Shown here one piece after another: positions 22,109 to 51,640 of a stretch of DNA of 64,000 nt (the stretch's first letter is position 1; the number at the start of each line of letters is the position of its first letter). A program made the position numbers and the translations under genes. Source of the stretch: Macrocystis pyrifera (taxonomy: Eukaryota; Sar; Phaeophyceae; Laminariales; Laminariaceae); contig JASSKH010000007.1 in NCBI GenBank assembly GCA_031763025.1, positions 8,323,930 to 8,387,929 of the forward strand. The letters run 5' to 3'. The notes under the pieces were generated by a model that did not search any database, had not been told where the DNA came from, and was given only the letters and a program-made list of their open reading frames with translations.

Positions 22109-22730
22109 ATTAACAATAGGTATCCCGTACTGGGTTGTCGGCGAAATTAGATCGCACGGCTATGTTATGCTACTCCCACACGCCCGCTTTACCACTAGCA
22201 CAGGTAACACATGTTAGATCTCGGGAATATCCAAAGGGTAACGTAGTAACATTACGTTAGAACGACTTCGGTCCCAACGTTAACTCAGTAACATTAACTT
22301 TGACCCGGACTGATTTTCATGATAACACGGTAACGGAATGTTACCATCAGATCTTTACTGACGGTAACACCGTAACATCATGTTGCAGGGACTTCCGCAT
22401 TTAGGCTATAACATCCAACATAATGTTGCGTATGGGCCGGCTAAGACTGTAATTTATCAAACGTATTTTAAGTGTTACGTTATCTGTGTCTAAGACAATC
22501 AGATGGGGCGTCCAGATAACGTGGTGTTAGTAGCTGGCCATTTGCGTTATGTCACGTTAGTATGTTATCTATAACACAATGTTATGTGTTAATAGTGCTG
22601 GCGAACATGGTAACGTTATGTTAGATTGTGATGTATAACACTCCTCCTAAGGGTAACACTATGTTAGTGTGTTACGTCTAACGCTGCGTCGACAATAACA
22701 TCATGATAAAATCGTGTTATTAATAGTAAA

Positions 22731-22914
22731 TGTTAAGGTATCCCCTCTCCCCCGTTGCGGCGTTATATCCCCTCTTCTCTGTTGCGGCGTTATGGTTTGT
22801 AGCATTCGTCCTCTCATCATACATGACAGGCGTTGTCGCCTGCTTTTCTGATGAGCGCCTCGCCCCTTCGTTCAGAAGACATCTGGCGAGGCAAACCGCA
22901 ACTAATACAAGAAC
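22731..22914 (+). repeat. 5' LTR fragment
   Basis: About 184 bp starting TGTTAAGGTATCCCC match the first two-thirds of the 288-bp LTR at 33290-33577 and end near CTAATACAAGA. The last 100 bp of the LTR and a primer-binding site are missing, so the 5' end was rebuilt by rearrangement. Confidence 0.7.
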
Positions 22915-23005
22915 GCTGACGGTGATGTCAGGCCCGTTGGGCAAAGGAAGAGAAAGGATGGGTCAACGAATGGTGTGCCGGGAGGTCTTCCGCGCCTGGC
23001 ACTGA
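22915..23005 (-). repeat. Inverted integrase fragment at the gag edge
   Basis: These about 90 bases are a diverged reverse complement of 29930-30020, which lies just after the integrase zinc finger. Shared landmarks are ATGGGTCAACG against ATGGGCCAACG, and GGTCTTCCGCGCCTGGCA against AGTCTTGCGCGCTTGGCA. I estimate about 70% identity by eye. It shows an inversion or template switch between related copies. Confidence 0.65.
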
Positions 23006-23661
23006 AGGCGACCCGCGACTCCACCACCGGAAAGCTTGCCGGCACCGAGAATGCCGCCGTGAACACCGGAGCTCCTCCAGGCTCGGCTTCCAGGCCGTCC
23101 GTCGACCGCCTCTACCGCCAGATGCGCATCGGCGCCGCTCACCGCGAAGTGAGGTATGCCGCAAGGTCCTCACGTTCCCCTGATCCATTTTTATCATCCG
23201 CGGCTGAATGGCCTGCTAATTCGACTGCTTGGGACGAGGTATTTCAAGTATCCGAATCTTTCTCAACAAATGGCATTCCATTATGGATGCCCTGTACCAC
23301 TCCCGAAGAAAGGCGCCAAGTCTTTAGGGAGATCAAAGGCCACTGTCTCAACTACAATGGCACGGATCATTCATTTAAGACCTGCACTGCCCCCTTCACC
23401 AACTCTAGCCACTATCTTAACCCCGAGCTAGGCCGACTTGGTGATAACGGTGAAACCTACCGCCGTTGGCAGCGCCGCATGCAGTCATACCGCCGTCCTA
23501 CCCACGTTGGCGGCGAAAACACACGCTCGTCGCCTTCATCGCATCGCAACAAAAACTCGTCTCGTCGCTACGGCAACAACCGCCGTAACGACCACGGGCA
23601 CCCCAACTCTGGTCAGTCTCGTCACGGTGGCGCAAAACAAGGTAATGTTGGAGGCCTTTAA
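22975..23661 (+). pseudogene. Gag-like protein fragment with altered zinc knuckle
   Basis: Gag is the structural, RNA-binding protein of LTR elements. The open frame runs 228 codons to a TAA at 23659. Residues 124-137 (CLNYNGTDHSFKTC) have exact C-x2-C-x4-H-x4-C knuckle spacing, but the second Cys is Tyr (residue 127). The C-terminal 60 residues are rich in Arg, Asn, Ser and His, as in nucleocapsid tails. The N-terminal capsid part is shorter than usual and its start lies in the inverted integrase fragment, so the true gag start is lost. An upstream motif (YRQMRIGAAHREV) resembles one in the 3' domain (YRRMRVGAAQREL at about 31625). Confidence 0.7.
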
Positions 23662-23924
23662 AGTGGTGGCCAATCGGCTGCTTCGCTGACGGTTTTCCAA
23701 CCCCAACACGGCGTTCCCACGGGGCCTTCCTCTGGCCCTCAGGCCCCGGGTATGCGCTACGGATCTGCTGGTGAATCTAACCCCAATGGACGTCAACCAG
23801 GGACCTTCCGCTCCAATTGACTGCCCAACGGCGGTACGTTTGACGTTCCCATCCCGTCGACAGCACTCACGGGAAGCACGTCTGACCCAGACACTGACCA
23901 TCGACCCCCCGGCGACAGCGTTGC

Positions 23925-24350
23925 CCCTTCACCGCCGGCACCAGGTATGCGTACCGCTCCTGATCCCCGCGACGGTCCTTTGGTTGAGACCGTAGGTACT
24001 ACATGTTCACCGCCGGCACCAGGTATGCGTACCGCCCCTGGTGTCTGCGAAGACGGCCGCCTTCCAGTTGCCGTAGGCTCTTCCCCGCCGGCACCAGGCA
24101 TGCTTGTCGCTCCTGGTTCTGGCGAAGACGACGGTAGTGCTCGTAGGTACTACATATTCTTCACCGCCGACACCAGGTATGCGTACCGCTCCTGGTCCCC
24201 GCGAAGATGGTCCTTTGCTTGAGACCGTAGGTACTACATGTTCACCGCCGGCACCGGGTATGCGTACCGCCCCTGGTGTCTGCGAAGACGGCCGCCTTCC
24301 AGCTGCCGTAGGCTCTTCCCCGCCGCCAGCACCAGGCATGCTTGTCGCTT
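23925..24350 (+). repeat. Tandem ~78-bp repeats encoding SPPAPGM linker
   Basis: CACCGCCGGCACCAGG-type starts recur about every 78 bp (about 23930, 24008, 24086, 24162, 24242, 24322). In the element's frame the units read SPPAPGMRTAPG followed by a DGPL or DGRLP tail. A frameshift near 24130-24160 moves the later units to another frame. Probably a flexible Pro-rich spacer between gag and NADAR. Confidence 0.65.
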
Positions 24351-25099
24351 TTGGTTGTGGCGAAGATGACCGTATGATTGCCGCCGTAGCCTCCCCACCG
24401 CGAGCACAAGGAGTGCTCGGCACTCCTGGTCCCCGCGTAAACGACACTAGTCGTCATTTTCCGCGTGCGTCTTCCCCGACTTCATCTTTTGAGACAACCA
24501 CCATGTCCAGGAGTGACTCCCGGGATGTGAGAGTCGCCTTGAGGTGTAGCTACGGGAACACAGGCCCCTCGAGAACAACACGGGCGCTCCGCTCGAGGTC
24601 CTCACGCAAGACCAGTCGGAATCTCCCTCTGCGCACTATTATCGAAGACGATCGGAGTGTAGTCAGCTTTGATGTTCATCCTGACCAGAGCGTAGCGGAA
24701 GATTCTTCTTTGAGCCACGGCGTTTCGCCGGAGGCCACTGAGCCCGACAGGACGACACATGTCCCCCACAGGGCTTAGACGCAGCTACGCCCTCGGCGCC
24801 AAAATGTGCCCCTTCTTACCCAGACGAGATACGACGAGGTGATCTGAGAGAACAGACCCCGCGTGCCGCCCGGGCCGTGCTGACAACAGCATTTGCTGTG
24901 GACCCACTTCAAATGCCTCCCGCCTACATGGTGGATGTCTCGCCCACTTGGTCAAGGTGGACCGGTCGGGAGTCCCCTGCCTCTCCCCGAAATGTCTCGG
25001 GGACGGCAGACACGACCGGTCCAGGCGAATGCGCCTCCTACCCCGGCCTCGATAACGAGGCCCTGGCATAGCAAGAAGCAGGTTGGGAACCGTCTCCCA
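24351..25099 (+). pseudogene. Gag-Pol spacer, unrecognised and decayed
   Basis: Continuation of the element's coding region. An open frame (24104-24778) carries on from the Pro-rich repeats with a Ser/Arg-rich stretch and stops at 24776. From there to 25100 all frames are broken and I recognise no domain. Confidence 0.45.
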
Positions 25100-25700
25100 G
25101 AGAGAGAGAGACCCCGAACTGCTTTTCCGGGGATGTGTCTCACACACACCCCGCTCCTTCTCGCGCGGCGGTGAATACCGCCGCGTTTGATACCCAAGAG
25201 TACTACACGCGCGACATCGTGTTCTTCTGGTAGCCCCCCTCATGCTTCTCGCAATGGACGCCTTCCCGTTTTACGGTCGAAGGCATCTCTTACTCCTGTG
25301 GCGAACAATTCTTCGCCGCCGAAAAGAGTCGCCTCTTCAGAGACCACCAGACCCTACAACACATCATTCGCGTGTCTGACCCCCGCCTGCACAAGCAATA
25401 TGGACGCGAAGTCCGTAACTTCGATCTCGCCGTGTGGGAACGCGAGCGAGAAAACATCGTGCTAGTCGGCTCTTACGCCAAGTTCGCTCGAAACCCAGCC
25501 ATGCGAACCCACCTCTTGGACACAGGCGACAAACTTCTCGCGGAAGCTAGCCCTTGCGACCTCATATGGGGCATCGGATACAGGGCTGACACTATTCCTG
25601 CACGCCAGCCGCCCCTGTGGCGTGGCTTATATTTGCTGGGCAAGACTCTGCAATCCGTGCGACGTCTCTTCCGCGACCGCGCGCCGCCACCGACGCGCCC
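25100..25700 (+). pseudogene. NADAR (YbiA/DUF1768-like) domain inside the retrotransposon
   Basis: The frame through 25201-25690 reads as a near-complete NADAR domain: DIVFFW, then FTVEGISYSCGEQFFAAEKS, YGREVRNFDLAVWERER, a KFARNPAMR segment, LLDTGDKLLAEASPCDLIWG and finally LGKTLQSVR. The glutamate in GEQ, the GREV arginine, the KF-x-N block and the LxTGDxxLxEASPxDxxWGIG core are all kept. NADAR proteins are associated with NAD/ADP-ribose metabolism, and characterised members remove ADP-ribose from modified substrates. One in-frame TAG (25231-25233) lies just after the first strand; the rest is open to 25917. It sits between the gag spacer and protease. Activity of this copy is unlikely; function within the element is inference. 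Confidence 0.85.
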
Positions 25701-25859
25701 CCAACAATGGTCTGCTCAGGACACCTCGCCCTCGAGACCGCATCTTCGAAGTCGACCCTTCGACGCGACAGCAACTGTGCCCAAGGGACACACCTGCATC
25801 CGCCTCCCCGTCGGGATATCCCGACTCCACCACAACCGCGCCACCAGACCACGGCGGCG

Positions 25860-26515
25860 ACGTTCTCGAAGTAATGTCCGCCGCCCGATCCGGTCAGCAC
25901 CCCCCCTTGCTCGCTGAGCAAGGGCCTTGTCTTGTTGCTGGTGCCGTAACCATGGACGACTCTTCCTTTACCACCAAAATTAAGATCCACAGTGGCCTAG
26001 CTGCTCTGCAGCTTGGATGTGTCGCCCTTTTGGATACGGGCTCGCCGCAGACCTTCCTTAACACCCGCGCGTTCGATAGCATGAAACGCGTGGGTGCTGC
26101 CTCTGCCACTTGCGAACGACACACTCCTCCCAGGTCATGGGGCGGCTTTGGTAAGTCTCCGCCTCTTGAGACCACGGTTGCAGTACGCTTAAGCATACAA
26201 TTCTTCCATGGCGATACACCAACTGCATCACTCGCCGTATGGGGCATACGTCGTCCCATCTGAAGCGATGCAATACGACGTGCTACTTGGACGTGACAGC
26301 TGGATGCCCTTCCAGGACCGCTCTCACCGTACATTGGCTCCCTGCTCGATGACTAATCGGGTTCCCGGCGAGCTTACGCTGTCCCTGCCAGGACTGCAGG
26401 GCACAACAGCGTTTGTGCCCGGCTCTTCGGCTCATGCCGAATGTATGCGGGTGACACGGCATCACTTTGTCCCGCGACCATCGACTTGTCGATGTCTATT
26501 TGGTTCGCAGTAATG
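25860..26515 (+). pseudogene. Retroviral-type aspartic protease
   Basis: Processes the Gag-Pol polyprotein as a dimer. The active-site motif DTGS (26033-26044) sits in VALLDTGSPQTFLN. The flap and second half continue in another frame as YDVLLGRDSWMPF (about 26270-26310), so a frameshift falls at about 26200-26260 between the two halves. The upstream frame (from 25622) also overlaps the end of the NADAR frame, implying a second shift near 25700-25860. Confidence 0.85.
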
Positions 26516-26534
26516 GTGCCCCTGCCCTCACCGG

Positions 26535-27026
26535 TTGCTACCTGGTCAATATGCTGCACGCGGCCACCGATTTTTGTGCGGAAGAACTAATTGTAGAAAA
26601 TTAGCCGGTGCCGCGGATCTAGACCCAGGTGCCTTGCTTGGCACCTCCTCTAGCCCGCTATTACGCGTTCCCCCGGAAACTGTCCTGCTCGACGCTTTGG
26701 CTCCTTCTTTACGCCCACACGACTCTGGCTTCACAGTTCCAGGGCCAGTCCCCCCCCATTCCATGGGTACGGACCAGCCCTCGCAACCAGAGTGCCCGGA
26801 CCCCTTCGTGCACCATCTACGAGACGCGACAGCCCAGACACGCGAAGAACCCGCGACCCCTTCGGCTCCGCCTGTCGACCACCCCCCTTCACCTGCGTTG
26901 CTCGAACGATGGAGCACAGACCAACGCACGAGCGTCTTACAAGCATGGAACCGTTTGCCGTTGCACATGCGCGAAATCGCATTTGACTTGCGCGGCCTCG
27001 GTTGGACGCCAACCGTCATCACCTAA
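26535..27026 (+). pseudogene. Protease-RT connector
   Basis: A 163-codon open frame with no catalytic motif. Its C-terminal part (LPLHMREIAFDLRGLGWTP) leads directly into the reverse transcriptase N-terminus but is cut off by a TAA at 27024-27026. Read as the normal link between protease and RT. Confidence 0.6.
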
Positions 27027-28420
27027 TTGGGCGATGTTCTCGCTGAGTTCTCCGACGTGTTCTCGAAGTCTCCAACCGATTTTGGCTCCTGCTCTCTGCT
27101 CCCCTTCAAGATAACTGTTCCCCCGAACAGCTCTCCTGTGACGTCTTGGCCCTACCGCATCAATCCCCCGACTGCAAAGCAAGTAGACGCGGTTCTGGAT
27201 AAATTCCTCGCCGCCGGCCTCGTCCAACACTCCACATCTCCCTGGGCGAGCCCAGTGGTTGTCATCCCGAAGAAATCCGGTGGCATCCGCATCACGGTGA
27301 TCTACAAGAAGCTGAACAAACTCAAAGCTCCTCGGCCAGCTCCCCATCCCGCTCGTTGACGAGGCTCTCGACAAGCTTGGCACAGGTCGAATCTTCTCAC
27401 TCTTCGACTTCGTCTCTTCTTTCCATCCGATAACGGTGCATAAGGACACGATCCCTCTCGCTGCTTTCTGTACACCCACGCGCCTTTTCGAGTGGCTGGT
27501 TATGCCTCAAGGAAGCAGCGCTGCTCCAGGGTGGTTCGTCAAAGTCATCAACGAGGTCATCAAGGGCTTGGACCGCGTTGCCGCCTACCTCGACGATGTC
27601 ATCGTCTTCGACGCCGATCCCTCCCTCCACGTCACTAACATAAAGGAATTGTTCTTGCGATCACGACACCACAACCTCAAGCTGTCCCCTTCAAAGGCTA
27701 CCATCGGCGCCACGGATGCGGATTTCCTCGGTCACACCATCTCTCCAGCCGGCGTTTTGCCAAACGCGCAAAAAGTGGAAGCACTGACGAAAAAGCCCAT
27801 GCCGAAAGACCTGAAACAGCTACGCTCCCTTTTGGACGCACTTTCCTACTACAGGAAATTCCTGCGTGATATGGCCAAGCGCATACGGCCCATCTCTTCC
27901 CTTCTGAAACAAGGCGTCAAGTTCGTCTTTACCCCAGATATGGAAGTCATCGTGCGGAAGCTCCTGGCCAAGTTGACCACGCCCCCGGTCCTCGTCTATC
28001 CCAACTGGGGCGCCGTCACGGATAACTCCCGCCCTTTCCTCCTCTACTGCGATGCTAGTGTGGACGGTGTCGGTGCCACCCTCGAACAAGAACAGGACGA
28101 CCACACCATTCGTCCCATCGTGTTCATCAGCCGCGCTACCATCGAGTCTGAACGCCACTGGACTCCGCTCAATCTGGAAGCAGGCAGCATCGTCTGGGCT
28201 GTCAAGCGCCTTCGCGGCTACCTTTGGGGCACCAAATTCCGATTTTCTTCGGACCACAAGGCGCTCGAAAGCCTCGACAAGATCGCAGAACATAACCCGC
28301 GGGTACAGCGATGGCTTGAATTCCTCACTGCATACAACTACACGCTGGAATATCGCAAAGGCAGTGCCAACGGGAACGCCGACTTCCTGTCCTGCCTGCC
28401 CTTACCTGTGACGGGGCGCG
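27027..28420 (+). pseudogene. Reverse transcriptase and RNase H
   Basis: The RT begins FSDVF at about 27050, continues with a TSPWASPVVVIPKKSGGIR block, then shifts frame near 27340. The frame from 27436 keeps the LVMPQGSSAAPGWF block and the catalytic YLDD (27586-27597). The first catalytic Asp is in FDFVSSFHP (about 27400-27430). RNase H follows with YCDASVDG (catalytic Asp at 28051), LNLEAGSIVWAVK (Glu), SSDHKALE (Asp) and a C-terminal GNADFLSCLP. RT copies element RNA into DNA and RNase H removes the RNA strand. Damage: stop upstream at 27024 and one frameshift. Active-site residues remain. Confidence 0.95.
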
Positions 28421-29480
28421 ACCGCAACGGCCCCAGCAGCCTCACTCCGTCCGGCAAAGAACGCGTTTTTCTCATCCACTCTCACGGCCTACTCCAGGGT
28501 GGACCCTCCGCCGTGCGTGTCGGTTTGGGTGGGCTGGCGCCCTCCGACCCGAGCTTAGGCTTGGGTGGGCTCCCGCTCTCCCCGCACGATTTCCGCGATA
28601 TTCGCCAACAAGGGCCCCGAATGCGGATTGACGACCTGAATGCTCCAACTGGAGAATTCGTTGCCCGTGCCACCCTTACGTCACTTCGCGAGGTCCCAAC
28701 TGGGCCCTTCCTACGAACATATGTACCAGCGATGCTCTCGCCGCTTCTGTGTTCGCAGTCCCTGTTGCACCGCTGGCCGCTTCAACCGAAGGCACGGACC
28801 CCGGCCGACGCGCCACTTCCTCCGAGCCTTCCCCATCACCCACCGAAGGCGACCCACCGCACTCTAACCCTATAGCGGTTCCCGTTTCGTCCACGGTCGC
28901 CCTCGGCAAAGCAGCGTGGCACACCCTCTCTCCTGCTCGGCCTGTCCAGCACGACTCAGCCGAGCACCCAACGGATTCAGGTCCTCAGGAACCCTCTGTT
29001 GTGTCTCATCCAGCCTCGCGTGTCGCCCGGACCAACCGTGATCGAGTCTCAGTTGTGTCCGTGGCTCCGCCTCTGCTGCCTTCGTCTTCACAGACGGCTC
29101 TGCCGTCCCTTCCCCCGTCGGGGCTCATTTCGTCTTGGACCCGCCGTCGCCAAGCTGCCGCTGCTGGCAAGCCTACGACCGCCGTGGACTATGGTTTCAC
29201 TCGTTCGCATTCTATTCGGCCCACCGTCCCACGACCAGTCCCCACGGCGTGCAAGCCACGCCCGCCTCGGACTACGCCCCCTTCAGATTCTCCCCGGCCC
29301 TTCATCGGCCCCGTCCCGACAGTGCCGATTCGACCCACCACCGATGCGATTACACCTGCTCCGCCCTTGCTTAGCACCCTCCCTCCGGACGCTCCTGGGC
29401 GTGCCAGCGCCACAGCCGCCCTTCCCGAAATAACCCCACCGGCAGAGGCCGAGTTCATCGAATCTGTCGAGCAATACACT
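28421..29480 (+). pseudogene. Long Pro/Ser-rich linker between RNase H and integrase
   Basis: About 1 kb without motifs, rich in Pro, Ser, Thr and Arg. The RNase H frame ends at a stop at 28873-28875, while the integrase frame is open from 28749, so the frames overlap and must have shifted between about 28700 and 28870. Such a long tether is unusual for Ty3/gypsy elements. Confidence 0.6.
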
Positions 29481-30930
29481 CATTCCGATTGGGCGCGTGA
29501 ACAACGCGCTGAACCGGTTTGTGACGCCGCCATTCTGTATCTTCTCCTTGGCAGCCCCTCCGTCCTCCCCGACGATTTCCTCTTACACTTACCGCCTCAC
29601 AAACGCCCCCCGTTGTCCGAAGTGCGCTCCTTAGCCGAAAAAGGACGACATTACACAGACGACGGCGGTGTTCTTCTGCTCGTGCGGAAGTTGACGCCCC
29701 CCGCTCTGGCTTGTCCCGACAAGCCTGGCGGACGTGCCGCCTGTCTTTTGGACAACGAGCCTACGAGAATCTACGTCCCGCTGCTTATGCGTCCGTGTAT
29801 TATGCAAGCCTGCCATGCTAACGCCTCCTGCCACCTTGGTGTCGCTCGAACGCTCTCAAAGCTCGAACGTTTCTTTTGGTGGATTGGCATGATCATCTGC
29901 ACGCGGTGTTGGATCCGTCGTTGTCTCAAATGCCAAGCGCGCAAGACTTCCAGACAAACGGTACGTTGGCCCATTCTCTCCCTTCCGCTACCATCCGGCC
30001 CTGGTGTCGCGGTGAGCGTCGACTACTTCGGTCCCCTTCCCGTCACACCTCGAGGCCACTGCTACATTCTACTCTTCACGGATAGGTTCAGCTGGCGCGC
30101 AGACATGTCCGCCGTCTCGGCTGCGGAATTCACGGTTGAAAGCCCCGCCGACATCTTAGTCAATAAGGACATACCTCTTTGGGGATGTCCGGTCAGCCTT
30201 CTCTCCGACAATAGACTGCACTTCTGCTCCACGCTGTCACATGCCGTGTACAAACGTCTGGGAATGCGCAAAATCGCTACAAGCGCCTACCATCCCAACG
30301 GTAACGGCGGCGTCGAGCGCGTCAACCACACCATGGCTCAAATGCTAGCGATGGTCTGCAACGAACGACAGGACGACTGGGACATCCATTTGCCGCACGT
30401 GGAATTTGCTTACAACAATTCCGTCAGCGCCGCCACCGGGTTGGCCCCGATGAGGTGCACATGAACCGCCTCCCCCGCCTTCCCCTCACCATCTTCGAAC
30501 AACACTACGCCCGAGGCCACCAAAGCCTCGTCCGCGACCAACTGGAGTACTGCGACCTCGCCGCCGACCGCCAACGGCGTGCGTATGCGCTGGTGCGTGA
30601 ACAACACGCTATAACGGTCGCTCGCGTTGAGCGCCGTAACTCAGCTCTCTCAGACGCCCTCGAACAACGCCCTATCTACACCATCGGTAACTGGGTATGG
30701 ATATACAACACCGCTGCCACCATTCGCCAGGGTGCGAAATCTGGCACCGACGCCAAGGTTCTCAAGACGAAACTCTCGCTCAACTGGACAGGTCCATTCA
30801 AGATATTAGCTTTGGCCCCGCGCCTTCCGACTCGACGCCAGACGGCCGCCCTTTGGCCGCCAAGTTGCTATATCTGGACCCGCCTAATGACATGCCGGGT
30901 GCCGACGCCCACTGCCGCGTTTCTGTAGCC
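29480..30930 (+). pseudogene. Integrase
   Basis: Inserts the element DNA into the chromosome. The zinc-binding HHCC is complete: His codons at 29814 and 29832, Cys codons at 29922 and 29931 (CLKC). The catalytic core keeps Asp at 30021 (VDYFGPLP), Asp at 30207 (LLSDN) and Glu at 30315 (VERVN), with exact D,D-35-E spacing. The usual SDNG glycine is Arg here. The frame breaks near 30455 and continues in another frame through GNWVWIYN and LSLNWTGPFKIL, the GPF/Y-type module before the chromodomain. Confidence 0.93.
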
Positions 30931-31035
30931 CGCTGCAAACCTTGCACCAACCCAAATGACATAACCGACCTCCCCGATACCTCCCCGCTGGACTAACGCA
31001 ATGCGTCTTCAACAACCATGCCACTAAGTCCCCCC

Positions 31036-31368
31036 AACTCACATAGTAGGAGAATGTGAAATATACAAGGAGGAACGGGATGTGTTAGAAGAGGAGATGA
31101 GGAAAATAGACGAATGTGACATGGAGGAGTTTGACACAATGAATAGCAGCGAGAAAATGATCGCTGTCCTAGGGGATAGATGGTGGCCACAGGCGGCCAA
31201 ACAGGAAGGGGATAAGATTAGCAGAAAGTTTCTATGTAATATATGGAAACAACGTAATGAGCGCCCAATTGTTGGAGGCGTCTCTATTAGGAGTTGGAAC
31301 GGTGCTCCGCCTCGAAAGGGATGCGTGGTCAATGGTCAAATGACTAAGGCGAGCAACAAATGAGTACG
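31036..31368 (+). mobile_element. 5'-truncated LINE tail inserted in the chromodomain
   Basis: The element frame before (NNHATKSP) and after (HVTADDV) belongs together. Between them are about 330 bp of different composition (AG-rich, low Pro) with an open frame ending at 31361-31363. It reads WWPQAAKQEGDKISRKFLC then WKQRNE, typical of the C-terminus of non-LTR retrotransposon ORF2 proteins. It stands in the sense direction, lacks a poly(A), and is followed by 19 consecutive C (31369-31387). C-runs flank both sides (CCCCCC at 31030-31035). Confidence 0.65.
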
Positions 31369-31387
31369 CCCCCCCCCCCCCCCCCCC

Positions 31388-31620
31388 TTCCACGTCACTG
31401 CCGACGACGTTTCCGTGCCCATTGAGCGTTTGGAGGTCGACAAGATTTCCAGCCACCGGTCAGTACGAGGCCGGGGCGGAATCATCACCGTTCTCTACAA
31501 AACACACTGAAAAGACCTCCTCCGGCCGTCTTGGGAACGTGAATCGGACCTCCTTCACTCTCGACAACACATCCTCAACTACTGGGCCGGCGCGCCCCAA
31601 CAACTTCGGCAGGAAAACAG
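31388..31620 (+). pseudogene. Chromodomain of the Ty3/gypsy element
   Basis: Reads VDKISSHRSVRGRGG, then VLYKTH, a TGA at 31508-31510 where Trp is expected, then LLRPSWERESDL and HILNYW. The order basic strand, aromatic strand, SWE, C-terminal helix is that of a chromodomain fused to integrase in chromovirus-type elements, where it targets insertion to marked chromatin. The Trp-to-stop change and the LINE insertion just upstream disable this copy. Confidence 0.75.
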
Positions 31621-32047
31621 GGCGTACCGCCGTATGCGCGTGGGTGCCGCTCAACGCGAGCTCGCCCGCGACAAGGGCACCCGTTTTCTGCCTCCTGAAT
31701 ACAGCTACGTCGACCAGCAAACGTGGACTCGCCGGTTCAGGGGCACCACCTTGCCTATCGGCGCTCACTTTTGGTACAACGGTCAAGATCATCTTTGGTG
31801 GCTCGGAAAAATTTCTGCCCACACTTCAACTCCTGGACAGTACGTCGTTCGCTTCTTGGACGACCCCGGACCGGTCGAGCTCGCGCTATCTTCTGCTCGG
31901 TATACTACGGCTGATAGAGCCGTTCGCGGCTCGTGGTGTCTACAAGTGCACCAAGGAAGCTCCCTCATGCATGGTATTGTGCGTAACGTTGACGAATCCC
32001 GCGGAGCCGAGTTAACTGGCTCTGCCGACTTGAATACGTCCCCGTAG
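31621..32047 (+). pseudogene. Second C-terminal module, Tudor-like
   Basis: In frame with the chromodomain and open to a stop at 32045-32047. After YRRMRVGAAQREL it reads PIGAHFWYNGQDHLWWLGKI, then PGQYVVRFLDDPGPVEL and RYTT. An aromatic-rich strand followed by Y-V-V-R-F-x-D-D resembles Tudor-type barrels, which read methylated residues. Fold assignment is by eye only. It could instead be a lineage-specific capsid or chromatin domain. Confidence 0.5.
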
Positions 32048-33289
32048 CCAACTTTAGTTTTTCGCATGCGTGTCTTCCGTAGTCGCCGGGGCTGGGTTTG
32101 ATATCGTGTCACTGTTTGCGTGGTTTCTTTGTTTTGCTGTGTTGTAGGTGTACTGTTTGTTTGACTTCTTACGAACTCTCTAGCCGTTTCCCTGCTTTCA
32201 CGGCAGCTGGCTGCCGAGTTCTTGCACCGATTGGGCTAACGGTTGGATTCACTTCAGCCTCCTTGCCATTCGGTCATGCGTCTCTTGCGTTCCGTATCTA
32301 CGATTTCTTTCGCCCCCTCTCCGAGAGCGGCGGAAACGTTCGTTCGCGTTTCGATTCCTTCAGTCGTACCAGTTTTTCTTGTTGTTTTTCTTGTATCGCT
32401 TGGCCCCTCTTTAGTTTGCCCGAGGCCATGTTCGTGTGCCTTTTTATACGCATCGTACAGGTTGCCCTAGGTTTAGGTCTGACCCTATTTGCCGTTCATG
32501 TGTTCCCCCTCCGCCTTCTTAATATCCCCAAGCAGGGCGAGGTGATAGATATCGTTTTTTCGCGACCATTTGCATTCCGCCCTCTTCCGCGCGATATTTC
32601 AGAGTGTTATCAGGTTTAGATTGGGTAGTAGGCGATTAGTAAACCTTTTACGGATAACCCAACGGACCCAGACCTTAACAATAGGCCGTAACGATTTCTG
32701 CTCATTGTATTTTTCGTGTTCTAGCGCGCTCAGTGTAGACGAAATCTCGCACGCGTCCTTTCTGCCCTCTTTTATAGGATCGGGTCTTGACTGTCTTGGG
32801 TTCTCCCATAGCGTGATTACCTGTTTTCCGACACTGTTTTCACTATTCGAGTGAGCCCCTTCGCGTCAGCACTTGTTTCTCATGCGTTACCCCCGCGTTT
32901 GGTTTTTCTTCTCGAATCACCCCGTGCCTTCGCAGTGGGTACTGCAACGATCATTTTTTTTGTTGTTTGTGTTTGTGGTTCGCCCTCAGGTTAGCTTATG
33001 CCGCTCATGGCAACGCGAGCTATACCGCTTCCTCGAGTTTAAGTCCTCGATTTAGCTTCCGGGCAGTTCTAGCTTCTTTTGCCTGCTTCCGCTTATCCGT
33101 ACTTTCGGACTTGTTGTTGTTGGATTCGCAATGTCCACGTGTAATCGGCTACCGCCTTATAGGTCAGAGGTGTGGGAGTGGGTTGTGAAGTGCCGCATCT
33201 TCGATCCATTCTCCGATTTCTCCGGATTGTTTTTGTTTTTACCCGAGTTTTCCATGAATCTGCATATACGGCCCTTCAGGGCAGGCTAG
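32048..33289 (+). other. 3' non-coding region of the Ty3/gypsy element
   Basis: T-rich, no coding signal. It contains a short TGTTATCAGG...CCTTAACA unit (about 32607-32683) like the one at the element's extreme 3' end (33829-33900). From about 33165 it is the sequence that also precedes the LTR at 18504. Confidence 0.6.
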
Positions 33290-33577
33290 TGTTATGGTAT
33301 CCCCTCTCCCCTGTTGCGGCGTTATGTCCCATCTCCCCTGTTGTGGCGTTATGGTTTGTAGCATTCGTCCCCTCATCATACATGGCAGGCGTTATCGCCT
33401 GCTTTTCTGATGAGCGCCTCGCCCCTTCGTTCAGAAAACATCTGGCGAGGCAAACCGCAACTAATACAAGAGATTATACCATCATGAAGCACCTCGTGTA
33501 TTGACCAGAACAGAGCCAAAGGCATCAACCTGCTAGCAGTAGTGGGTTCCTAGGTCCATACTGCCCTACACTTGACA
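33290..33577 (+). repeat. 288-bp LTR (3' side)
   Basis: TGTTATGGTATCCCC to CCTACACTTGACA; same start, same end and same length as 18504-18791. The first about 184 bp match the 5' fragment at 22731-22914. It is followed by a further 323 bp before the element border at 33900. Confidence 0.75.
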
Positions 33578-33900
33578 CTAGTGTTATGAAGCTACATTTT
33601 ACCTTTAGCCCAATGGACTAAGACCTTAACAAATGGCGTCGACGGCAGGGCATGGGTCGTTGGTCGTGAGTTCGAATCTCACGTCCACCATGAAATCGCT
33701 TTTTAAAGAAAAGTGAATTTCCTCATGTCAAGAATCTGAAAAAACACTTTTGAATCCCCAGAAATTGGAACCGTGTGTTGGTGTCACGCGTCGACCCGTA
33801 TATCCGGTCCGTTCCTGGGGGGGAGAGTGTTATGAGGCTTAGATTGGGTAGGCGATTGGTTAATCTTTTACCTTTAGCCCAACGGACTAAGACCTTAACA
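33578..33900 (+). repeat. Short TGTTATGA...CCTTAACA units with a tRNA 3'-like arm
   Basis: Two short repeats (about 33582-33630 and 33829-33900) share TTTAGCCCAA, GGACTAAGACCTTAACA and TG...CA ends. Between them, 33666-33690 is a perfect tRNA T-arm (GTGAG, TTCGAAT, CTCAC) followed by GTCCACCA, like a tRNA 3' end, but no matching 5' acceptor strand is present. It could be a captured tRNA piece, or a minus-strand primer-binding site (TGGTGGACG) of a miniature LTR element. Confidence 0.5.
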
Positions 33901-34233
33901 TAAATATGCGGATATCGATCTGGGCATGTTAGAGTGATAACGTACGTGTTTGGCCAAAGCCTAACACTGTGTTACAGTGATAGTTCAAGGACTGAATACG
34001 GTAGGACACAATGTTACTGTACCAGAGCTGGACATGAGACCGACCAGCAACTTAACGTTAAGGCGCGTGCACGTTCGTGGGTTTCTAGTTAACACTGTTG
34101 TGTTACCGCGTTACCGTGATCGCTCCTCCTGTGCTAAAACACTATGTTAGTACGTTACCACGTTCCTCTGTTAGGCCCCATAACGTAGGTAAGTGTTATC
34201 CGAGTGTTACGTTATCCGAGGTGTGAATGTTTC

Positions 34234-35035
34234 GTTTCACACTAAGGAGCATAGAATAGCACGATGACTATACATCACCGATAAAGAGATGCGTTCACCA
34301 CGTAAATGATTGCTGTTCACCAGGCGGATTACATAGAACTACTTACGGATATCTCGATCTCTGAGTGTGCTCGGTTGGTACATTCCTGACCTCTCAGAGC
34401 TCCCACTTGGGAATCGCCTCCTTTTATTACTTGCCGGACCTTTCCAGCGGGTCTTTGTTTTCTCCACTTCAATCCTTCTTTCCTTTTTTCTTCTTTCGTT
34501 TCGTGTGCGTGCGTTTACTCGGAGTACGGCATCGCGGGCGAACCCGGTGCCGTCGCGGGTGTCGGCGGATGGTGGCCGGTAGAGAGGGGATTGCAAGGAG
34601 CGTGATCGCCGGTTTTGTGGCTAGGCGTTGCGTGTGCCTCGAAACACGAGGGAAGCATGAATGGGCTCTGTCTGGCCTCCACTATATTTATTTGTGGTTT
34701 CTGATGGAGAATCTACGAGTTTATAAGGGTCGGTCGGGATTTCAAGATATTATGATTCAAGCGGTGCTTATTTTCGCGACCGGGCTAGAAGCTCAAAGAG
34801 AGAGAGGTGCGCAGGCCGAGCACCAACATTGTCGAGCTGGCGAACCACGGCCACGGTGAACACCGGGTCTCACGCGAGGCGGGCGACGGGGCTCACTGTG
34901 GCAGAGAGTGAGGGGAGCTTTGCCCGGTCCGAATCGGTGGCGAGATCGTTGCGAGAGGGGCGGGCGGCGTACTGGGCTCAGAGAGAAGCTCTGCTGTTTG
35001 TTTTTTTTCTTGTTTCTTTTTTTTTTTTTTGACCG
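34234..35035. other. No recognisable gene
   Basis: A plus open frame (34365-34859) and a Lys/Arg-rich minus frame (34339-34596) exist, but neither has motifs or splice support. GC-rich with T-runs near 35010-35030. Confidence 0.4.
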
Positions 35036-50133: not shown

Positions 50134-51384
50134 CATAAATAGCATCTTATGTAATGTTGTTAACTTGTATGCAATGTATGTAATGACACAAGTTAGTAGA
50201 TAACGCACATCCCCAATCTAAAGTCAACAATATGTTACTGCCGTGTTGACTCGTACATGCGAGTGTGCGGATTACGTTATGGATGAATAACGTAGTGTGT
50301 TGTAGATGGATAACGTACTGGCGGGGTTTCCACAAAAAAACTGAGGCGTTTTTTTTCGCGGGGATTCCTCCTAAATATCCCCTGTTTTGGGGTTTAAAAA
50401 AATGGAAGCGTTTTTTTAACCGAGGATGCCATGCTATCTTCCCCCCCCGGGGATATTTTTGTAGGTATCCCCTACTGGTATGTCGGCGAAATTGGATAAC
50501 ACGGCTACGCTATGTTACTCCCACACGCCCGCTTTACCACTAGCACAGGTAACACATGTTAGATCTCGGGAAGATCCAAAGGGTAACGTAGTAACATGAC
50601 GTTAGAACGACTTCGGCCCCAACGGTAACTCAGTAACATGAAGTTTGACCCGGATTGGTTTTTATGGTAACACGGTAACGGAATGTTACGATCAGATATT
50701 TACTGACGGTAACACCGTAACATAGTGTTACAGAGACTTCCGCATTTAGGCTAACATCCTAACATAATGTTACGTATGGGCCGGCTAAGACTGTATCGTA
50801 TCTAACGTACGTTAAGTGTTACGTTATCCAACCCTAAGGCATTCAGATGGGGGGTCCAGGTAACATAGTGTTAGTGCTGGCCATTGCGTTATGTTACGTT
50901 AGTGTGTTATCCGTAACACAATGTTATGTGTTAGTAGTGCTGGCGAACATGGTAACGTTATGTTAGGGTGTCATGTATAACACTCCTCCTAAGGGTAACA
51001 TCATCTTATTGTGTTCCGTCTAACGCTCGTCGACAATAACATTAGGTTATCGTGTTAGTAAATATGCGGATATCGATCTGGGCATGTTAAAGTGATTGCG
51101 TACGTGTTTGGTGAAAGCCTAACACTGTGTTGCGGTGTTCGTTCAAGGACTGATCACGGCATAACATAATGTTACTGTACCAGAGCTGGACGAGACCGAG
51201 CAGCAACATAACGTTAAGGCTCGTGCACGTTCGGGGGTTTCCAGTTAACACTGTGTTGCCGCGGTACCGTAATCGCTCCTCTAGTGCTAACACTATGTTA
51301 GTACGTTACCACGTTCCTGTGTTAGGCCCCATGACGTAGATAAGTGTTATCCGAGTGTTACGTTATCCGAGGTGTGGAATTTTT

Positions 51385-51640
51385 CGTATTTTTTTTAACA
51401 AATCTCTTCGAGTACGAGCACTTATTGGCGAAACGCTGAGTAGTCGACACGGGAAGCCCGGCCGAACACATTGGTCAAGGTCCGCGCGCGACCCGTGCAG
51501 TGTGGAGCGCGTGGAGCATGTGTCAAGCGCTCGAAAGTTTATTTTTTCTGCGGGAGTAGATAAGACGATTTCCGTGAGGCCTTATTTTCTTATTTTGTAC
51601 CACGTACGTACGTACCGGTGAAATGTTGTCTATTTTCTTC
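51385..51640. other. No recognisable gene
   Basis: Single-copy-looking sequence between element A and the GGGATTG repeats; nothing identified. Confidence 0.4.

Follow-up and report, generated by a model that had tools for sequence, protein, structure and literature searches.

The 64,000-nucleotide stretch of the Macrocystis pyrifera genome analysed here (contig JASSKH010000007.1; hereafter the window) contains a degenerate Ty3/gypsy retrotransposon that carries a NADAR (YbiA-type) domain ahead of its protease and reverse transcriptase (RT) (Table 1). An earlier note on this DNA had proposed such a domain at 25100-25700. A Pfam profile search of the open reading frame (ORF) at 25240-25917 confirmed that it is real: PF08719 matched 25240-25671 on the plus strand (E 9.6e-41; 140.2 bits against a cut-off of 35.1) and was covered from position 11 to 162 of 163, and the two cores quoted in that note, LLDTGDKLLAEASP and WGIG, are present. 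The frame is open from 25234 to 25914, and tblastn with the long Pol protein P0094 (63%) extended the domain to its approximate borders given in Table 1, across one in-frame TAG stop. The fold agrees with the profile. An AlphaFold2 model of 25240-25698 reached a mean predicted local distance difference test score (pLDDT) of 93.2, and Foldseek returned only two PDB matches at E <= 0.001, the ADP-ribose-bound Phytophthora nicotianae NADAR (8bau; template modelling (TM) score 0.85) as the best and E. coli YbiA (2b3w; TM 0.78).

As had been claimed, the NADAR domain lies in sense orientation inside the borders of the element and is not a neighbouring gene. The sequences on either side, 22117-22701 and 33901-34235, align at 89% with 50462-51042 and 51059-51387 elsewhere in the window, and since these matches form a near-contiguous empty site, the intervening sequence was mapped as an insertion, with ends read from the junctions as TGTTAAGG...CCTTAACA (TG...CA) and TAAA on either side. 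A pair of long terminal repeats (LTRs) was recovered in part (182 base pairs (bp), 94% identical), the 3' end being seemingly rearranged. Ty3/gypsy (Metaviridae) elements are flanked by LTRs and a target-site duplication and encode protease (PR), RT, RNase H and integrase (IN) in this order. RT, RNase H and IN follow each other accordingly in the window and in P0094, with PR placed by motif and tblastn only. The position between gag and protease also held, with a gag-like ORF upstream of NADAR and a protease motif, recognised by eye, downstream, followed by RT, RNase H and integrase. RVT_1, RT_RNaseH and the integrase H2C2 domain scored above the Pfam cut-offs and the integrase core below. No Pfam match was obtained for gag, protease and C-terminal region of the window element, for protease and C-terminal region of P0094 and P0119, or for ten other window ORFs. 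The C-terminal Pol region of the window element is common to P0094 and P0095. As the parts of the element are spread over several frames and NADAR is interrupted by an in-frame stop, the window copy is degenerate, a point that the earlier note does not mention.

The same arrangement recurs in database polyproteins. A search with NADAR residues, in a length range admitting polyproteins, yielded six of 1223-2422 amino acids (aa), and NADAR lies upstream of RT in all six. In P0094 and P0095, RNase H and both integrase domains also exceeded the cut-offs; P0094 (2422 aa) has NADAR at residues 268-418, RT at 996-1154, RNase H at 1250-1352 and integrase at 1788-1961. Two of the six, P0095 and P0098, bear the name Ectocarpus sp. 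CCAP 1310/34. When the RT of P0095 served as query against the 7990 candidates with most words in common, 194 proteins were obtained, of which 120 were listed. Among the proteins listed in this search and in the NADAR search, nineteen had an RT at least 50% identical to that of P0095 and starting at residue 640 or later, limits that were set afterwards and leave P0095 itself outside. BLAST found NADAR in 16 of these 19, P0127 having a mere 32-residue piece, and found none in P0113, P0116 and P0131. P0162 and P0165, with 40 and 42% RT identity and room upstream, were likewise without NADAR.

The window's own genome (537,376,219 bases in 223 contigs) was screened in two ways. With NADAR as query, 1264 candidates appeared at first look; the best 150 were scored, all exceeded the cut-off, and 126 had no inner stop when counted by eye, the window copy not being among these 150. 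From them 68 places were taken as a NADAR-selected set (8 as given, 60 hand-chosen down the list). In 65 of the 68 a protease region was detected downstream in the same orientation (the exceptions are L117, L145 and L152), and RT was present in 41 and absent with downstream Pol present in 14; the other 13 give no RT call, 8 of them being stretches that reach less far downstream. The second screen was blind to NADAR. The window RT as query returned 84 rows, with 83 of 4433 candidates scored, and the first 45 rows were used, leaving out the window itself and L087, L095, L125 and L149, which were already NADAR-selected with NADAR present. In the 40 remaining RT-selected places, 1051 bases at the expected upstream slot were examined; NADAR occupied the slot in 33, in sense in 33/33. 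Other copies with NADAR in this slot, which the earlier note had proposed to search for in related genomes, were found in the window's own genome.

Purifying selection across copies, proposed there as a test, was borne out by the ratio of nonsynonymous to synonymous substitution rates (dN/dS). Fourteen of the 33 RT-selected copies gave a gapless alignment of at least 140 codons with the NADAR of the window, at 75% or above. Together with the window they gave a median dN/dS of 0.42 (pooled 0.46) over 105 pairs, which are not independent because the sequences are related, compared with medians of 1.12 and 1.32 when the same 15 sequences were shifted by one and two bases. Variable sites numbered 47, 44 and 63 at codon positions 1, 2 and 3. 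Those with a second base in at least three copies were distributed 4/1/13, singleton-only sites 40/35/40, and the 21 intermediate ones, by subtraction, 3/8/10; the shared and singleton classes differ (Fisher p 0.004, positions 1+2 against 3). This pattern is that of selection during mobility of the element, followed by neutral decay. In the NADAR-selected copies, which were ranked by NADAR score and therefore form a biased set with inflated conservation, median dN/dS at dS of 0.02-0.1, 0.1-0.2, 0.2-0.4 and 1.2-2.0 was 0.55, 0.40, 0.26 and 0.24 for NADAR (67 copies), 0.47, 0.33, 0.39 and 0.23 for PR (47 copies), and 0.49, 0.39, 0.47 and 0.12 for RT (33 copies).

NADAR also diverges in step with RT. 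Mean identities across polyproteins were 0.58 for NADAR (10), 0.52 for PR (8), 0.64 for RT (10), 0.68 for RNase H (10) and 0.73 for integrase (4 of the 10), and NADAR and RT identities correlate (r 0.88, p 0.0001, 10 polyproteins). That the window copy is broken and that its NADAR resembles bacterial ones would suit a host or bacterial gene having been inserted once, in this copy alone. The occurrence in 6/6 polyproteins and 33/40 RT-selected places and the correlation with RT refute this explanation, whose probability we consider negligible. Altogether, that NADAR keeps its slot, orientation and order in other copies and in polyproteins, and that it shows purifying selection, supports its belonging to the element.

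In a tree of 113 NADARs, 23 element rows fell within a group of 35 (support 92/93, short of the starred level), which otherwise comprised seven Myxococcota, three Planctomycetota, one viral row and one further database protein. Two changes are needed on the tree to account for the element rows, and a single clade was not rejected in the approximately unbiased test (p-AU 0.435); possibly, NADAR was acquired once and then inherited with RT. Among the best 80 of 508 loci, prokaryotic NADARs were 43-55% identical to that of the window, the nearest being those of Myxococcota and Planctomycetota (50-55%). The latter, ten rows in the group of 35, are bacterial, whereas the NADARs studied here are borne by retrotransposons; YbiA-like antitoxins of YarT have been described in myxobacteria (PMC11125620). 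A horizontal transfer from bacteria was suggested as possible by Dinatale et al. (PMC12477816), and our tree agrees with this suggestion and may narrow the source. Identity of the window NADAR does not exceed 70% with the 11 polyproteins of the tree and reaches 85-88% with database fragments. Copies in viral contigs were considered and set aside, as just four relatives, with 41% identity, were found.

Eleven residues of the P. nicotianae NADAR contact or adjoin ADP-ribose (PMC11543638). We compared these positions in 102 element sequences (15 polyproteins, 68 NADAR-selected with the bias noted above, 17 RT-selected, and the window counted twice). E43 was kept in 96, K50 in 98, K75 in 98, R79 in 94, W89 in 98, R93 in 96, E125 in 101, D130 in 101 and W133 in 100, and the Y84 position is Phe in 97, so that 10 of the 11 positions are conserved, counting the Tyr-to-Phe replacement. 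E43, K50 and E125 correspond to residues tied to catalysis, and at the E125 position Glu marks the YbiA subfamily, Asp the DarT1-associated BC4488 type and His the phage type (PMC11543638). The window and 101 of the 102 sequences carry the YbiA-type Glu; assignment to the BC4488 type by an Asp at this position found no support in the element NADARs. The P. nicotianae enzyme hydrolyses guanine-linked ADP-ribose (PMC11543638), and all NADARs of a tested panel reversed guanosine ADP-ribosylation in RNA, and NADARs did not act on phosphate ends (PMC11833690). Since the ADP-ribose pocket is conserved, guanine de-ADP-ribosylation is the likeliest predicted activity, and the element NADAR is most likely a hydrolase of this kind.

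The best overall explanation, to which we give about an even chance, is that this Ty3/gypsy Pol includes an active guanine-ADP-ribose hydrolase protecting the nucleic acid of the element. The NADAR would be made as part of Pol and sit in the particle beside RT, where it would remove ADP-ribose from guanine bases of the element's own RNA, complementary DNA (cDNA) or target DNA, and it would counter guanine-specific ADP-ribosyltransferases, from the host or the environment, whose action would block reverse transcription or integration. Conservation of the active site fits such protection of element RNA and cDNA. More tentatively, NADAR may serve as a retrotransposon counter-defence, its retention implying that brown algae, or their microbes, restrict retrotransposons through nucleic-acid ADP-ribosylation; no report of such restriction was found in the papers searched. 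Retention of such a domain under selection in a retrotransposon lineage points to mobile elements being under pressure from ADP-ribosylation of nucleic acids.

Several observations weigh against this explanation. D86, which contacts the adenine-proximal ribose, is not kept in the 102 element sequences, and the score-ranked sampling behind the pocket counts and binned dN/dS applies here as well. Bacterial NADARs showed no or negligible activity on uracil ADP-ribose made by PARP10 (PMC13036486), so that a writer of this kind would not be countered. DarT was rejected as the opposing enzyme, as PF14487 had no match in the window's genome, one of 14 control genomes being positive. Seven of the 40 RT-selected places (L157, L167, L172, L179, L181, L185 and L192) had no NADAR in the 1-kb slot. 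These may reflect deletions, insertions or shifts, the slot being narrow, and members without NADAR, which the earlier note would have taken as a sign of a one-off insertion, are only a minority (7/40 against 33/40). The element rows formed one side of a branch in just 6% of 200 bootstrap trees, so a single origin is weakly supported. Among 14 copies of an RT-less derivative described below, NADAR changes by codon position (shared 2/4/8, singletons 13/9/17) are too few to decide on selection.

An unlikely though conceivable alternative is that NADAR acts on small molecules such as ADP-ribose derivatives of nicotinamide adenine dinucleotide (NAD) signalling or RNA-repair products, blunting a soluble host alarm or aiding RNA processing. 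A small-molecule role has been posited for viral, mainly phage, NADARs and activity on a riboflavin intermediate is known in the family (PMC9503650), processing of RNA intermediates has been suggested (PMC12477816), and the conserved pocket binds ADP-ribose itself (PMC11543638). However, the NADARs that were assayed cleave ADP-ribose from guanine in DNA and RNA but leave ADP-ribose at the phosphate ends of RNA in place (PMC11833690), and the fixed place in Pol would suggest work inside the particle. We consider it improbable that the domain strips ADP-ribose off proteins such as Gag, integrase or chromatin at the insertion site: a Macro domain does occur in another gypsy Pol (P0190, see below), but the macromolecular activity described for NADARs in the available accounts concerns guanine bases and not protein targets (PMC11543638, PMC11833690). 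The loss of D86 would be in line with a non-catalytic module that binds nucleic acids or nucleotides, or a spacer kept for folding, yet the catalysis-linked E43, K50 and E125 are retained in 96, 98 and 101 of the 102 sequences, and we regard this option as very improbable.

The RT-less derivative accounts for 14 of the 55 resolvable NADAR-selected places (L101, L109, L111-L114, L116, L118, L119, L127, L130, L132, L139 and L146). Aligned to P0094, they pass directly from about residue 962 (950 in L127) to 1341 or 1346, a gap that removes RT and most of RNase H and keeps NADAR, protease and the integrase side, with a common junction. The NADARs of these copies are 97.7% identical on average, so the derivative looks like one deletion that was then amplified, RT presumably being supplied in trans. 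Another ADP-ribose-processing domain was seen in an LTR element: P0190 (1613 aa), a Ty3/gypsy-type Pol, has a Macro domain (PF01661, E 2e-16) at residues 942-1054, between RNase H and integrase, a combination for which no report was found among the open-access journal papers listed, going by title and abstract start. If NADAR is indeed a counter-defence, the RT-less derivative and the Macro-domain Pol would add to the signs of such a conflict.

The earlier note had supposed that NADAR is not an established retrotransposon domain; this does not stand, since NADAR-carrying Gypsy elements were reported in Ectocarpus in 2025 by Dinatale et al. (PMC12477816), the only one among the open-access journal papers listed that, going by title and abstract start, describes NADAR in an LTR element. 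Like the window lineage, Gypsy-12_Ec32 of Ectocarpus has a Gypsy Pol with a YbiA-family NADAR in the N-terminal region, nearest NADAR kin outside Ectocarpus that are bacterial, and a C-terminal region after the integrase (PMC12477816). It resides in a different genome, is likened here by its published description, and has a putative C-terminal chromodomain (PMC12477816), whereas the window element, P0094 and P0119 gave no Pfam Chromo match. The P. nicotianae YbiA-subfamily NADAR (8bau, PMC11543638) shares the fold and 10 of 11 pocket positions with the element NADAR, but is only 32% identical to the window NADAR over the structural alignment and has the D86 that element NADARs lack; its available description mentions no retrotransposon. 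ORF1 of the Tx1 long interspersed nuclear element (LINE) of Crassostrea gigas is a further case of a NADAR-like domain in a retrotransposon, but the element is non-LTR and the NADAR divergent (PMC12477816). The kind of element is therefore not new; what is added is another NADAR-rich genome, evidence on selection and the active site, and an amplified RT-less derivative. NADAR gypsy elements are thus not confined to the Ectocarpus genome.

Table 1. Features of the NADAR-carrying element and its empty site (window coordinates)
Feature	Position	Strand	Basis
Ty3/gypsy element, degenerate copy, ends TGTTAAGG...CCTTAACA	22731..33900	+	empty homologous site and flanks
Left target-site duplication TAAA	22727..22730		junction compared with empty site
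Right target-site duplication TAAA	33901..33904		junction compared with empty site
5' LTR, part	22731..22912	+	94% identical to 33290-33471
Gag-like open frame, degenerate zinc-knuckle-like stretch (by eye)	22906..23658	+	no Pfam match
NADAR (YbiA-type) domain	25216..25674	+	PF08719; tblastn P0094; AlphaFold2 and Foldseek
In-frame TAG near NADAR start	25231..25233	+	sequence reading, this copy
Aspartic protease region, LLDTGSP motif at 26027 (by eye), frame-shifted relative to NADAR	25943..26408	+	tblastn P0094; no Pfam match
RT and RNase H, two frames	27234..28872	+	tblastn P0094; within 27316-28872 RVT_1 1.3e-19, RT_RNaseH 3.9e-29
Integrase: H2C2 zinc domain, weak core	28632..30461	+	PF17921 1.1e-11; PF00665 0.022, below cut-off
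C-terminal Pol region, Tudor/chromo-like by eye	31511..32044	+	57% (P0094) and 59% (P0095) identity where aligned; no Pfam match
3' LTR region, seemingly rearranged	33290..33900	+	pairing with 5' LTR limited to 33290-33471
Homologous repeat without insertion (empty site)	50462..51387	+	flank comparison

Two further polyproteins have unusual domain compositions. P0165 (2106 aa), a related gypsy Pol, carries a C5 DNA methylase at residues 368-701, between protease and RT, and a chromodomain. P0106 (eukprot, 2129 aa) is a NADAR gypsy Pol fused to N-terminal gag_pre-integrs, rve and SH3_retrovirus domains, which we take to be copia-like, and is probably a gene-model fusion or a nested insertion.

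At the right end of the window element, 33572-33900 contains two copies of a 35-base LTR end (97%), a stretch that by eye resembles a tRNA 3' half, and a purine tract followed by a short TG...CA unit; ARAGORN found no tRNA in the window. This end may be a nested short LTR element. Upstream of NADAR, 23928-24390 holds a tandem array of six repeats, each about 72 bases long and set at intervals of 75-81 bases; by eye the array is proline-rich in one frame.
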